Of a stretch of DNA of 40,622 nucleotides, positions 19,633-23,417 are shown piece after piece. The notes beneath the pieces are model-generated. The model made no database searches. It saw only the letters and a program-made list of their open reading frames with translations, and was not told the origin of the DNA. The DNA comes from Modestobacter caceresii (lineage in GTDB: Bacteria; Actinomycetota; Actinomycetes; Mycobacteriales; Geodermatophilaceae): contig NZ_JPMX01000050.1 of NCBI RefSeq assembly GCF_000761485.1, forward strand, positions 1 through 40,622. The letters run 5' to 3'. Made by a program: the position numbers and the translations under genes. Numbering within the stretch: the first letter of the stretch is position 1; each line of letters begins with the position of its first letter.

Positions 19633-19976
19633 GGAGTTCTCCTGGAGGTGTGTCGAGTGGGCGCGTGGCAGAGCGCACGCGGTCGCAGCCATGACAGGAG
19701 GCGCGCCGGCATGAGGCTCGTGGGGATGACTGGAGAGCGAGTGGTGACGTGCTCGTCGCTCGCCGGTCCGGCAACGCACGGATGCAGGAGTCCGCACTGC
19801 TGGAACTCTCCCGGCGCCATTCCTACGGCACCTGCGGTCCACCCGCCACTTGAGAGCGCAGTAGATCTCGGCCGGCCCGGATCTCGCACGAAGGGCGCAT
19901 CTGGCCGGACACATGGGGCGCACGGGCGGAACAGGTGCGTTGGCGTATACCCGGGGGGGTATGTACGCTGCAGTGC
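19633..19976. other. Intergenic region between divergent genes
   Basis: 344 bp between the small membrane protein gene (minus) and the CsoR-family gene (plus). The right end carries the promoter and operator listed separately. I see no convincing gene or strong hairpin in the rest. Confidence 0.5.
19940..19969 (+). promoter_or_regulatory. Promoter with CsoR-family operator in its spacer
   Basis: TTGGCG (19940-19945) and TACGCT (19964-19969) with an 18-nt spacer form a good -35/-10 pair. Transcription would start at about 19976-19977, exactly at the GTG of the repressor gene, which has no ribosome site; the mRNA is probably leaderless. The spacer holds the inverted repeat ATACCC-GGGG-GGGTAT (19947-19962), typical of CsoR/CstR operators. 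Autorepression is inferred. Confidence 0.7.
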
Positions 19977-20243
19977 GTGGACATCCCCCAGGGCGAGCTC
20001 GCCGACGTCGTGAAGCGCCTCAACCGCATCCAGGGCCAGATCGGCGGCATCGTCCGGATGATCGAGGACGGCCGCGACTGCGCTGCGGTGGTCACCCAGT
20101 TGGCGGCCGCGTCCAAGGCGTTGAACAAGGCGAGCTTCGCCGTCGTCAGCACCGGGATGCGGTACTGCTCGATCAACTCCGAGGAGGAGACCCGCGAGGT
20201 CGACCTCCGTGAGCTCGAGCGCTTGCTGCTCTCGCTCGCCTGA
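19977..20243 (+). CDS. CsoR/RcnR-family repressor, CstR-like persulfide sensor
   Basis: An 88-residue all-helical DUF156 repressor. Two conserved cysteines, C35 (in GRDC) and C64 (in MRYC), are 29 residues apart, as in CsoR and CstR. The position of the copper-binding His of CsoR, four residues before the second Cys, is G60 here, so the Cu(I) site Cys-His-Cys is incomplete. A Cys pair without the His is the pattern of CstR, which senses persulfides by forming di- or trisulfide links. The downstream persulfide dioxygenase, rhodanese and TauE genes fit this. GTG at 19977 is chosen because residues before it precede the promoter -10. Confidence 0.85.
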   Translation: MDIPQGELADVVKRLNRIQGQIGGIVRMIEDGRDCAAVVTQLAAASKALNKASFAVVSTGMRYCSINSEEETREVDLRELERLLLSLA

Positions 20244-20270
20244 TGTCCACGACGCCCGGAGGAGAGGCCC

Positions 20271-20321
20271 ATGGCACCCACCCGGGTCGCCGGGGCCCGG
20301 GAGGGCGAGTCGGCCGTGTGA
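20271..20321 (+). CDS. Possible 16-aa leader peptide ORF
   Basis: ATG at 20271 follows an unusually strong ribosome site, GGAGGAGAGG (20258-20267), and opens a 16-codon frame (MAPTRVAGAREGESAV) ending at 20321, between the repressor and the persulfide dioxygenase gene. It may couple translation or be the remnant of a gene. No homology is claimed. Confidence 0.25.
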   Translation: MAPTRVAGAREGESAV

Positions 20322-20357
20322 GCGACCGGAGCGCCGACGCCCTTGTCTGACCCTCAC

Positions 20358-20378
20358 ATACCCCTACCCCGTACGGTA
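20358..20378 (+). promoter_or_regulatory. Second, degenerate CsoR-family operator candidate
   Basis: ATACCCC-TACCCC-GTAC-GGTA directly precedes the ribosome site AGGAG (20381-20385) of the dioxygenase gene. It shares ATACCC half-sites with the operator at 19947-19962 and holds an imperfect TACC...GGTA inverted pair, plus a TANNNT hexamer (20372-20377). It suggests a second promoter controlled by the same repressor. Confidence 0.45.
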
Positions 20379-20391
20379 CAAGGAGCGCACC

Positions 20392-21768
20392 ATGCAGATC
20401 GACATCATCGAGACGACCAGTCTCGGGGACCGCAGCTACGTGATCAGCGACGCCGGGGTGGGCGTGGTCGTCGACCCTCAGCGAGACATCGACCGTGTTC
20501 AGGCCTTGGTTGCCGACCGGGGCGTCACCATCAGTCATGTGCTCGAGACCCACGTGCACAACGACTACGTCACCGGCGGGCTCGAGCTGGCCCGGGTGAC
20601 CGGCGCGGCTTATGTCGTCCCTGCCGGGGACAGCGTGTCCTACGAGCGGGTCCCAGCGTCTGATGGCGACGTGCTGGTCGCCGGGCCGATGCGGCTGCGA
20701 GTGCTGCACACGCCCGGGCACACGCACCACCACGTCTCCTACGTGCTCGCCGACACGGAGGGCGCCGTGCAAGCGGTCTTCACCGGCGGCTCGATGCTCT
20801 ACGGCGCGACCGGCCGCACCGACCTGCTGGGCGCCGAGCACACCGACACGCTCACCCACGCCCAGTTCCACTCGGTGCGGCGCCTGGCCGACGAGCTCCC
20901 GGCCGGCACTGCGGTGTTCCCCAGTCACGGCTTCGGCAGCTTCTGCGCCGCGACCCCGACCAGCGGGACGTCCTCCACCGTCGGGGAGCAGCGCAGGGTC
21001 AACCCCGCGCTCACCCAGGACGAGCAGGCATTCGTCGACCAGCTCATCGCCGGTCTCGGCGCATACCCGGCCTACTACGCCCACATGGGCGCGACCAACG
21101 CGGCCGGCCCCGATCCGGTCGACCTGTCCTTCCCGCGAGCGGTCGATCCGGAGGAGCTGGCCACCCGCCTGGCGGCGGGTGAGTGGGTGGTCGACCTGCG
21201 GGCTCGCACCGCCTTCGCCGCCGGCCACCTGCCTGGGGCGTTGAACTTCGAGCTGAGCACCAACTTCGTGACCTACCTGGGCTGGCTCTACGACTGGGGC
21301 GCCCCCCTGACGCTCATCGGGGAGTCCGAGCAGCAGGTCGTCGATGCCCGCCGCGAGCTGGTCCGCATCGGCATCGACCGCCTGGCCGGTGCCGCTGTCG
21401 GAAGCCCGGAGGCGCTGGCTGCGGGCCGGGAGCTGGGTTCCCACCCGGTGACGGACTTCGCGGGCCTCGCCGCTCAGCTCGGCGAGCACGAGGACACCGT
21501 CGTCCTGGACGCCCGCCGCGACGACGAGCGTTCCGCCGGCGGCGTGCGGGGTTCCATCCACATCCCGATCCACGAGCTGCCCGGGCGGATCGACGAGGTC
21601 CCGGCCGGGGAGGTCTGGGTCTACTGCGGCTCGGGCTACCGCGCCTCGATCGCCGCATCGATCCTGGCTTGCGCCGGCCGTCGTCCCGTGCTGGTCAACG
21701 GCGGCTACGGCGACCCCGACACCGGTTCCGCCGCTGTCGGGCTGCACACCACGTCGGTCCAGGCCTGA
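20392..21768 (+). CDS. Persulfide dioxygenase-rhodanese fusion (CstB-like)
   Basis: A 458-residue enzyme of three domains. Residues 1-230 are a metallo-beta-lactamase fold with THVHNDY (H54, H56, D58) and TPGHTHHH (H110). Residues ~245-345 are a rhodanese domain without an active Cys. Residues ~365-450 are a rhodanese with active-site loop CGSGYRAS (Cys412). This order (dioxygenase, pseudo-rhodanese, rhodanese) is that of CstB, which turns persulfide into sulfite and thiosulfate. The usual TGD motif supplying an Asp iron ligand reads TGG here (G133), and the family HxHxDH ends in Tyr; I believe both occur in other actinobacterial homologues. ATG at 20392 has AGGAG at proper spacing. Confidence 0.85.
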   Translation: MQIDIIETTSLGDRSYVISDAGVGVVVDPQRDIDRVQALVADRGVTISHVLETHVHNDYVTGGLELARVTGAAYVVPAGDSVSYERVPASDGDVLVAGPMRLRVLHTPGHTHHHVSYVLADTEGAVQAVFTGGSMLYGATGRTDLLGAEHTDTLTHAQFHSVRRLADELPAGTAVFPSHGFGSFCAATPTSGTSSTVGEQRRVNPALTQDEQAFVDQLIAGLGAYPAYYAHMGATNAAGPDPVDLSFPRAVDPEELATRLAAGEWVVDLRARTAFAAGHLPGALNFELSTNFVTYLGWLYDWGAPLTLIGESEQQVVDARRELVRIGIDRLAGAAVGSPEALAAGRELGSHPVTDFAGLAAQLGEHEDTVVLDARRDDERSAGGVRGSIHIPIHELPGRIDEVPAGEVWVYCGSGYRASIAASILACAGRRPVLVNGGYGDPDTGSAAVGLHTTSVQA

Positions 21769-21781
21769 GGGGCGAGCTCCG

Positions 21782-21955
21782 ATGTGTCGAGCAGTTGCCT
21801 GTCGGACCTGCGGTCTGACCACCTCGGCCGGCTGTGGCCAGCACGTCGACCGGGTCCTCGCCGGCGTCCCGTCCGCGGAACGCTGCCCCGGCCACGCGCC
21901 CACAGCCACGTCCACCACTGCCAGCCGGCTCCGCCGGCTGCTGCGCCGCTCCTGA
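21782..21955 (+). CDS. Small Cys-rich protein (57 aa)
   Basis: ATG at 21782, 13 nt after the dioxygenase stop and preceded by GGGGCGAG, opens a 57-codon frame starting MCRAVACRTCGLTTSAGCG and continuing QHVDRVLAGVPSAERCPGH. Five cysteines in the first 40 residues, including C-x2-C and C-x-x-C-like spacing around T-C-G-x-x-T-x-x-G-C-G, suggest a zinc or iron site. I recall very similar short proteins (MCR-x-V-x-C-x-x-CGK-T-T) in many actinobacteria, of unknown function. Its place within the sulfur operon suggests a role as thiol or metal carrier; this is inference. Confidence 0.7.
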   Translation: MCRAVACRTCGLTTSAGCGQHVDRVLAGVPSAERCPGHAPTATSTTASRLRRLLRRS

Positions 21956-22023
21956 ACCCCGGTCGCCACCGGTGCCCCCGCTCGGTGGCGACCGGCCCCT
22001 CCTCGAGAAGAAGACACCACCAG

Positions 22024-22641
22024 ATGACCAGCCCTCTCCGCATCGCTCCCGACGCCGTGGCCGCCCAGCTCGACGACCCGGTCGCCCCCACCCTCCTGGA
22101 CGTCCGCACACCGGCTGAGTACGAGACCGCGCACGTGCCCGGCTCGATCAACGTCCCCCTGCCCCTGGTCCACGAGCACGTCGAGACCCTCGCTGCCGCC
22201 CTGGACGGCCCGGTCGTGCTGATCTGCCAGGCCGGCAACCGCGCCCGCACCGCGCACGACGCGCTGGCCGCCGCCGGTGCCGAACAGCTCTCGGTCCTGG
22301 ACGGCGGCATGAACGCCCACACCGCCGCCGGGCATCCGGTCCGCCGCGGCCGCCGGCGGTGGGCACTGGAGCGCCAGGTCCGCCTGGTCGCCGGCGGCAT
22401 CGTCGCCGGGAGCGTCCTGGCCTCCATCCGCTTCCCCAAGGCCCGCTTCCTGGCCGGGGGCATCGGCGCGGGTCTGACCCTGGCTGCGGTGACCGACAGC
22501 TGCGCCATGGGTGCAGCCCTCTCGGCCCTGCCCTACAACCGGGCTGATCAGCCGGTCCGCCTGGACGACGTCCTGGACGTGCTGCGGTCAGCCACCACCG
22601 GACCCGCCCGCGCCACGGCGAACGCCACCGCGAACTCGTGA
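22024..22641 (+). CDS. Rhodanese-domain protein with membrane domain (YgaP-like)
   Basis: A 205-residue protein. Residues 1-105 are a rhodanese domain with the active loop CQAGNRA (Cys near residue 75) after LLDVRTPAEYETAHVPGS. Residues ~118-175 hold two membrane helices (LVAGGIVAGSVLASIRF and FLAGGIGAGLTLAAVTDSCAMG), a DUF2892-like domain as in YgaP. It would move sulfane sulfur at the inner face of the membrane. ATG at 22024 has GAGAAG upstream, and its stop overlaps the GTG of the exporter gene (GTGA), so the two are coupled. Confidence 0.85.
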   Translation: MTSPLRIAPDAVAAQLDDPVAPTLLDVRTPAEYETAHVPGSINVPLPLVHEHVETLAAALDGPVVLICQAGNRARTAHDALAAAGAEQLSVLDGGMNAHTAAGHPVRRGRRRWALERQVRLVAGGIVAGSVLASIRFPKARFLAGGIGAGLTLAAVTDSCAMGAALSALPYNRADQPVRLDDVLDVLRSATTGPARATANATANS

Positions 22642-23417
22642 TCGCCGCAGCGATCGGTCTCGGCCTGGTCATCGGCGCCCTCGTCGGGCTCCTCGGCGGC
22701 GGCGGGTCGATCCTGGCCGTGCCCGCCCTGGTCTACGTCGTCGGGCAGCCGCTCCCCCAGGCCGTGGCCACATCGCTGCTGGTCGTCGGCATCACCGCCG
22801 TCGTCGCCCTCCTGCCCAGACTGCGCGCCCGCCAGATCGCCTGGCGGATCGCCCTGCTCTTCGGCGCAGCCGGAGCGGCGACGGCCTTCGCCGGGGCCGC
22901 GGTCAACCGACTGTTGCCCGGCGACGTCGTGCTCGCGATCTTCGCGCTGCTGATGATCGCGGCCGGCCTCCGCATGCTGCAGGACAGGCCCGCCACCGGA
23001 GCCGCCTGCGCCACTGGCCACGGCACCGTCAACTGGCGCCGCTGCCTGCCCCGGACCATCGCCGGGGGACTCGTCGTCGGTTTCCTCACCGGGATGCTCG
23101 GCGTCGGCGGCGGGTTCCTGATCATCCCCGTGCTGGTCGTCGCACTCGGCCTCCCGATGACCACAGCCATCGGCACCTCGCTCGTCATCGTGGCCGTCAA
23201 CTCCGCCGCCGGATTCGCCGCCCACGCCGGCGACGCCCCCATCGACGTGCCCATCACCGCCGGCTTCACCGCAGCGGCAGTCGTCGCCGCTCTCGTGGCG
23301 GGGCGCCTGGGCGCGCACCTGGACACCGGCCGGCTCAAGCGCTGGTTCGCCTGGCTCGTGTTCGCCGTCGCCGCCCTGGTGCTCGGACAGGTCGGCATCA
23401 GCGCCGCATCGGCCTGA
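22638..23417 (+). CDS. TauE/SafE-family sulfite/sulfonate exporter
   Basis: A 259-residue membrane protein with about eight helices in two repeated halves. Each half begins with a Gly-rich motif: GLLGGGGSILAVPALVYV near 16-33 and GMLGVGGGFLIIPVLVVALG near 153-172, the hallmark of the TauE/SafE family. Within this operon the likely cargo is sulfite or thiosulfate made by the persulfide dioxygenase. GTG at 22638 overlaps the rhodanese stop. It ends one nucleotide before the end of the convergent xthA gene, leaving no room for a terminator. Confidence 0.9.
   Translation: MIAAAIGLGLVIGALVGLLGGGGSILAVPALVYVVGQPLPQAVATSLLVVGITAVVALLPRLRARQIAWRIALLFGAAGAATAFAGAAVNRLLPGDVVLAIFALLMIAAGLRMLQDRPATGAACATGHGTVNWRRCLPRTIAGGLVVGFLTGMLGVGGGFLIIPVLVVALGLPMTTAIGTSLVIVAVNSAAGFAAHAGDAPIDVPITAGFTAAAVVAALVAGRLGAHLDTGRLKRWFAWLVFAVAALVLGQVGISAASA

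Follow-up and report, generated by a model that had tools for sequence, protein, structure and literature searches.

The DNA analysed here, hereafter the window, comprises 40,622 nucleotides of the forward strand of contig NZ_JPMX01000050.1 (C50 in our numbering) from the 4.95 Mb genome of the soil actinobacterium Modestobacter caceresii (assembly GCF_000761485.1). Between positions 19977 and 23417 it carries five genes, all on the + strand, which encode a repressor of the CsoR family, a persulfide dioxygenase (PDO) fused to rhodanese domains, a small Cys-rich protein, a rhodanese with a membrane domain and a TauE/SafE-family exporter. Sequence comparison makes it very probable that these genes form a detoxification operon that responds to reactive sulfur.

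The operon and its genes

The operon had been predicted to begin at 19940. The genes assigned to that interval stood, its start did not: the repressor gene (19977-20243, 88 residues, C35/G60/C64; Pfam PF02583, Trns_repr_metal, 2.8e-22) most likely starts with a GTG codon at 19977, and the 5' part is filled by an operator, ATACCCGGGGGGGTAT (ATACCn6GGTAT, where n6 stands for six nucleotides between the half-sites), at 19947-19962. Its TACCn6GGTA core lies at 19948-19961, and the site ends 14 nucleotides before the repressor start. A second operator, TACCCCGTACGGTA (20365-20378, a TACCn6GGTA core), sits 13 nucleotides upstream of the dioxygenase start; neither site is assigned a strand. The dioxygenase gene itself (20392-21768, 458 residues) encodes a type III, CstB-like fusion of dioxygenase, rhodanese-like and rhodanese domains, recognized from Pfam matches (Rhodanese and Lactamase_B) and from relatives in the PDB. 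After a gap of 13 bp comes the small gene (21782-21955), whose 57-residue product belongs to an unnamed family, has no Pfam match above cut-off and follows the conserved pattern MC-x4-C-x2-C-x7-C-x2-H-x13-C-x2-H. A further 68 bp separate it from the gene at 22024-22641, which encodes a rhodanese (205 residues, C68; Pfam Rhodanese 1.8e-17) that carries a membrane domain of the YgaP type (YgaP-like_TM 1.5e-5; hydrophobic segment at residues 119-137); its domain order resembles that of YgaP, as far as the Pfam match alone can tell. This gene overlaps by 4 bp that of the predicted TauE/SafE-family exporter (22638-23417, 259 residues; Pfam TauE 6.3e-45). Given the close spacing and the 4-bp overlap, the five genes are likely cotranscribed.

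Sequence and Pfam matches thus confirm the five genes of the original prediction. Calling the operon complete was too strong: a search of the whole Modestobacter genome returned no match to TusA (the same search was positive in 11 of 14 control genomes), and neither CstA, which contains a TusA-like domain, nor SQR is among the operon genes, no genome-wide search for SQR having been made. A stand-alone rhodanese that is present in relatives is absent as well.

Conservation of the gene order in related genomes had been proposed as a check, and the gene set proved to be conserved. We define close relatives as the 13 of 20 fetched loci (10 genomes) whose repressor is at least 58% identical to that of the window; of the other seven loci, the repressor is His-less but more distant in four, and in three no close repressor is present. 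All 13 combine the repressor with the dioxygenase (70-93% identical), TauE and an n6 operator directly 5' of the repressor, a degree of conservation that takes the operon beyond chance. Full-length genes for the rhodanese with a membrane domain occur in 11 of the 13, and the small protein was not detected in five. Between repressor and dioxygenase, 11 of the 13 relatives have the stand-alone rhodanese gene; the window and two relatives (L050 and L052) do not. The corresponding interval of the window (20244-20391, + strand) is 262 bp shorter than that of its relative L043, to which it aligns at both ends, so that the rhodanese gene was probably deleted. Within this interval, a ribosome-site-like sequence and a start codon seem to be retained.

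A repressor without the copper-binding histidine

The window repressor has two Cys and, at the position of the copper-binding His, Gly60, which aligns to the His of the genome's other CsoR-family protein. This one further match in the genome (L174) has the Cys-His-Cys (C-H-C) site of copper-sensing CsoR proteins, which the window repressor lacks; its gene is followed by two genes that Pfam assigns to an HMA-domain protein and to an HMA/E1-E2 ATPase, and has an operator with seven nucleotides between the half-sites (n7). Thus, a copper-type sensor resides elsewhere in the genome, and the repressor at hand is one without the copper His. It combines four features of the CstR type: membership of the CsoR/RcnR family, two Cys without the copper His, linkage to PDO, rhodanese and TauE genes, and an ATACCn6GGTAT operator. 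Its PDB relatives include 4m1p and 7mq1.

The CstR-like, non-copper nature of the repressor had been predicted from C35, C64 and the Gly in place of His, and is borne out by these residues, by the n6 operators and by the separate copper-type CsoR. The misannotation that had been expected, as a copper sensor, is real as well, since the corresponding repressor is called a metal-sensitive transcriptional regulator in all three named plasmid records examined. The corresponding regulators of two Streptomyces plasmids have Cys at 37 and 66, the same numbering as ScCsoR, the repressor of Streptomyces coelicolor. The proposed C35-C64 disulfide or trisulfide is doubtful: ScCsoR, as described in the relevant passages of PMC7533328, is persulfidated at Cys37 alone.

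Two other repressor loci deserve mention. Genome G009 encodes on its contig C2 (L047:1194-1504), some 3 kb away from the main operon, an additional His-less repressor that is divergent (52% identical) and has an n6 operator of its own. On plasmid pRHL3 of Rhodococcus jostii RHA1 (L280), which is typed as mobilizable, a His-less repressor heads a cluster of DUF2892, DUF302, TauE and dioxygenase genes; a DUF302 gene also adjoins the dioxygenase at L278.

One base of operator spacing

Operator 1 fits the full binding motif given for ScCsoR in PMC7533328, ATACCn6GGTAT, and operator 2 fits its core. The core pattern occurs nine times in the genome, vs 49 times for a reversed control pattern, and two of the nine sites lie within 431 bp at the operon. 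A copper-responsive member of the same repressor family, CsoR of S. lividans, also uses a TAC/GTA inverted repeat; its operator, in the part of PMC3902906 that describes it, is TAC-X9-GTA, that is, the n7 form, whereas the window has TAC-X8-GTA (n6) and a repressor without the copper His.

This difference extends across the genomes examined. Copper-type repressors have n7 in 40 of 44 cases (29/30 and 11/14) and n6 in none; the set of 30 consists of 29 C-H-C proteins and one C-H-S protein, at least 22 of them from the genus of the window. His-less repressors have n6 up to 300 bp upstream in 32 of 70 cases, made up of 31 of the 56 in named small-gene loci (see below) and 1 of 14 in another sample, and n7 in none. 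Over the 1.04 Mb of the named loci, the n6 pattern occurs 116 times vs 15 for the control, and none of the other spacings between 2 and 12 is found more than 11 times. One base of spacing thus appears to split copper-type (n7) from His-less (n6) CsoR sites in these genomes. We regard this rule as new, since it is not stated in the passages on CsoR operators covered by a limited literature survey.

A dioxygenase with glycine for an iron-ligand aspartate

The window dioxygenase has the domains of a type III PDO: a metallo-beta-lactamase domain, a rhodanese-like domain and a C-terminal rhodanese with its Cys. Its PDB relatives by sequence are 3tp9 (1.4e-58) and 3r2u (5.8e-48), the latter of which we take to be staphylococcal. 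Unlike 3r2u, the window enzyme departs from the two-His-one-Asp iron site of the type: H54 and H110 are kept, and Gly133 occupies the position of the Asp ligand (FTGGSML vs FSGD in the PDB relatives). This is no isolated change. In an alignment of 65 sequences (80 matches minus 10 that were short or contained a stop and six exact duplicates, plus the window), 58 have Gly and seven have Asp at this position, and a single split with support 1.0 divides the two types in a FastTree tree. Asn57 accompanies Gly133 in 56 of the 58, Ala57 accompanies Asp in all seven, and nine residues are invariant in all 65 (H54, H56, D58, H110, R142, D144, H179, C185 and C412). With one ligand lost and these nine residues kept, we infer that the Gly-type site is a working but different one rather than a decayed one. 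This clade of Gly-for-Asp dioxygenase homologues appears, from the sequences compared, to be new.

Gly-type enzymes are also encoded by one Rhodococcus plasmid and by two Streptomyces plasmids whose gene set resembles the published S. coelicolor circuit. For the enzyme of that circuit, ScPDO, PMC7533328 gives a Vmax of 1.19 umol O2/min/mg with glutathione persulfide (GSSH); we make no claim that ScPDO (SCO0618) is a Gly-type enzyme. Another type of dioxygenase homologue (38-39% identical), found at L057:12149-13444 and at L029, also has Gly at the Asp position, with Ala at 57 and ARTD for GRTD.

A family of small cysteine-rich proteins

The 57-residue protein belongs to a family that reference collections do not describe. 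None of its 72 aligned members matches a Pfam family; NCBIfam gives only a weak RnfB match for two of the 72 (best E 0.0061), a profile search of the PDB gives nothing (best E 0.54), and the ten-residue stretch CGKTTWAGCG, common in the family, has no occurrence in the literature text searched. The structure predicted from the 72-sequence alignment is too weak for a fold search (predicted local distance difference test, pLDDT, 63.9; predicted template modelling score, pTM, 0.34). The residues of the pattern are nevertheless kept with great fidelity. C7, C10, C18, H21 and C35 are invariant among the 72 and C2 is present in 71; the 29 order-wide sequences all share C2, C7, C18, H21 and C35, with C10 in 28; in 30 other sequences C2 and C10 are present in all, and C7, C18, H21 and C35 in 29 each. 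Position 15 in these 30 is Trp in 22, Tyr in seven and His in one. In the small protein of the relative L043 (L043:4834-4998), the first Cys pair is damaged, C7 and one further residue being lost.

What ties the family to the regulon is its genomic surroundings. We examined 80 named small-gene loci, the best 80 of at least 483; the patterns that defined them included GCGQHVD, so that conservation of that stretch is partly due to selection. An n6 operator is found in the 250 bp that precede the small gene in 35 of the 80, vs one of 80 for the control, and n7 in none. These loci contain 56 CsoR-family genes, all of them His-less (38 C-G-C and 18 C-A-C) and none of the copper type. In loci of Terrabacter and Nesterenkonia, the small gene stands alone with the operator 37-52 bp upstream, and the surrounding 7 kb contain no homologue of the PDO, repressor, rhodanese or TauE (tblastn, E 1e-4); all 12 tested genomes with such solo small genes encode, at another place, a CsoR-family protein that reads Cys-Gly/Ala/Asn-Cys. 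Because the small gene is frequently preceded by the operator of the regulon, also when solo, we count its product in the regulon.

A wider sample points the same way. It holds 59 order-wide loci, the best match per genome. Of the 31 PDO-negative genomes 29 contribute, a very weak match and another that was not fetched being omitted; of the 48 PDO-positive genomes 30 contribute, without 16 that belong to the family of the window and two counted before, as L057 and L058. A His-less repressor lies within about 5 kb of the small gene in 36 of the 59 and a copper-type one in three; the operator is found upstream in 19, vs none of 59 for the control. Across 298 genomes, presumably the same in both searches, the small gene (E at most 0.001) occurs in 79, the PDO (E at most 1e-45) in 126 and both in 48, an odds ratio of 2.8 (p 1.8e-4, uncorrected for kinship). 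These counts rule out that the small gene always accompanies the PDO. The family is thus firmly tied to the regulon, its more distant members not always so, and this association is to our reading of the genomes a new one.

A working model and its known counterparts

In the model that we favour, a persulfide or polysulfide would react at C35 of the repressor, with C64 assisting, and the modified repressor would leave the DNA. The PDO-rhodanese fusion would then convert low-molecular-weight persulfide to sulfite, possibly also to thiosulfate by way of its rhodanese domain. Transfer of sulfane sulfur at the membrane would fall to the membrane rhodanese, and export of sulfite or thiosulfate to TauE. 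A weaker step concerns the small protein, whose five near-invariant Cys and one His might make it a zinc-stabilised acceptor or carrier of persulfide from which the rhodaneses or the PDO receive sulfur. The failure to detect TusA makes such a carrier role attractive; it is no evidence for it.

The core of this circuit is already known, being of the same kind as the ScCsoR/ScPDO/TauE/rhodanese circuit of S. coelicolor (SCO0618-SCO0621), published in 2020. In the passages of PMC7533328 that describe it, ScCsoR releases DNA upon polysulfide modification of Cys37 and controls PDO, TauE and rhodanese. The two systems share a two-Cys CsoR-type repressor without a cited copper role, a PDO-rhodanese fusion, TauE, a rhodanese and the ATACCn6GGTAT operator, which stands at the repressor's own promoter too; the window indeed has an operator-linked repressor together with PDO, TauE and rhodanese genes. 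They differ in gene order, and the window adds the Cys-rich protein and the YgaP-like membrane rhodanese; the main text of PMC7533328 contains neither the term "small protein" nor "cysteine-rich". The original prediction had taken the cst operon of Staphylococcus as its model, which holds for the CstR-type logic and not as the sole model, the Streptomyces circuit being the closest studied system found. As described in part of PMC5480029, the S. aureus cst operon (CstR, TauE, CstA, CstB, SQR) shares with the window this logic, the CstB-like three-domain PDO and TauE; unlike it, the window operon has no CstA or SQR and has an extra small protein. The earlier reading is otherwise supported; it did not include the pair of operators, the extent of the small protein across the regulon or the loss of the Asp ligand.

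Weighing the alternatives

Could this be a copper operon after all, with the repressor as a copper sensor and the small protein resembling MymT, a copper metallothionein? The CsoR family, the Cys-rich small protein, the "metal-sensitive regulator" names and the n7 sites before the dioxygenase gene of some relatives (detailed below) would all suit it. We nevertheless reject it as very improbable: the repressor lacks the His of the copper site, the genome's own C-H-C CsoR, with its n7 operator, sits beside HMA and ATPase genes, the operators are of the n6 form, and the named loci gave neither a copper-type CsoR-family gene among 56 nor an n7 site at any of 80 small genes. It is scarcely more plausible that the repressor senses another thiol-reactive signal, such as nitroxyl, hypochlorous acid, electrophiles or formaldehyde, with sulfur as one input among several. 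S. aureus CstR does react directly with nitroxyl, according to the relevant part of PMC5480029, and the family also includes FrmR; the neighbours, however (homologues of PDO and TauE, a rhodanese and the small protein), fit sulfur, and the Streptomyces repressor responds to polysulfide in the experiments described in PMC7533328.

More serious, if still improbable, is the idea that the dioxygenase homologue is no oxygenase and acts as a persulfide hydrolase, transferase or carrier, in an operon that moves sulfane sulfur without oxidising it. It draws on the Gly133 of 58 of 65 homologues and on the PDO of A. caldus (AcPDO; iron ligands H57, H113 and D130), whose variants D130A, D130E and D130H retain 0.5-2% activity in the data of PMC6060420 considered here. 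Against it stand the nine invariant residues and the Gly-type homologues that adjoin a Cys37/Cys66 regulator on the two Streptomyces plasmids; ScPDO consumes O2 with GSSH (PMC7533328), with the reservation about SCO0618 made above. There is, finally, an appreciable but minor chance that the small gene is a hitchhiker or encodes a zinc protein that has nothing to do with sulfur chemistry. It belongs to no known family, its structural model is of low confidence, it was not detected in 5 of the 13 close loci, and 78 of 126 PDO-positive genomes have no detected copy. Yet the regulon operator is kept at the solo small genes of Terrabacter and Nesterenkonia, and C2, C7, C10, C18, H21 and C35 are near-invariant over all three sets of 72, 29 and 30 sequences.

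Several observations also weigh against the sulfur-responsive operon that we prefer. Because the Asp ligand is missing and the AcPDO variants are so weakly active, dioxygenase activity of the window enzyme should not be assumed. In the window, Ser replaces Trp at position 15 of the small protein (codon 21824-21826), which is Trp in the other 71 aligned members, and in the subgroup to which the window and L043 belong the small protein may be under weaker constraint or decaying. Of the 59 order-wide small-gene loci, 16 showed neither a His-less repressor nor a PDO nor the operator upstream. No n6 site lies within 300 bp upstream of 25 of 56 and 13 of 14 His-less repressors in the two samples; we infer that many of the 14 do not head their operon. 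Finally, a copper-like n7 site, TACCCCTACCGGGTA in four cases, precedes the dioxygenase gene in 6 of the 13 relatives (L044, L045, L046, L047, L049 and L052), where the window has n6, and upstream of this gene in the named loci n7 is found in 3 of 41 vs n6 in 12 of 41. These n7 sites weaken the spacing rule as an absolute one, and some copper input or cross-talk with copper control at the dioxygenase gene is possible.

Implications

A bolder combination would go further: that the large actinobacterial PDO clade works at an iron site without the Asp carboxylate (two His, Gly for Asp and the linked Ala-to-Asn difference beside the His pair), together with the small protein of five Cys and one His as the dedicated persulfide carrier of the CstR-type regulon, in the role that a TusA-type carrier has elsewhere. 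We offer this tentatively, as the sequences make it conceivable rather than likely.

The consequences reach beyond one contig. The n6/n7 spacing provides a simple rule to reannotate "metal-sensitive regulators" and their targets, and an unannotated family of small proteins gains its first functional context across many Actinobacteria. If the Gly-for-Asp enzymes are true dioxygenases, they would be an exception to the two-His-one-carboxylate rule for persulfide dioxygenases; if they are not, many operons now read as persulfide-oxidising would be misread.

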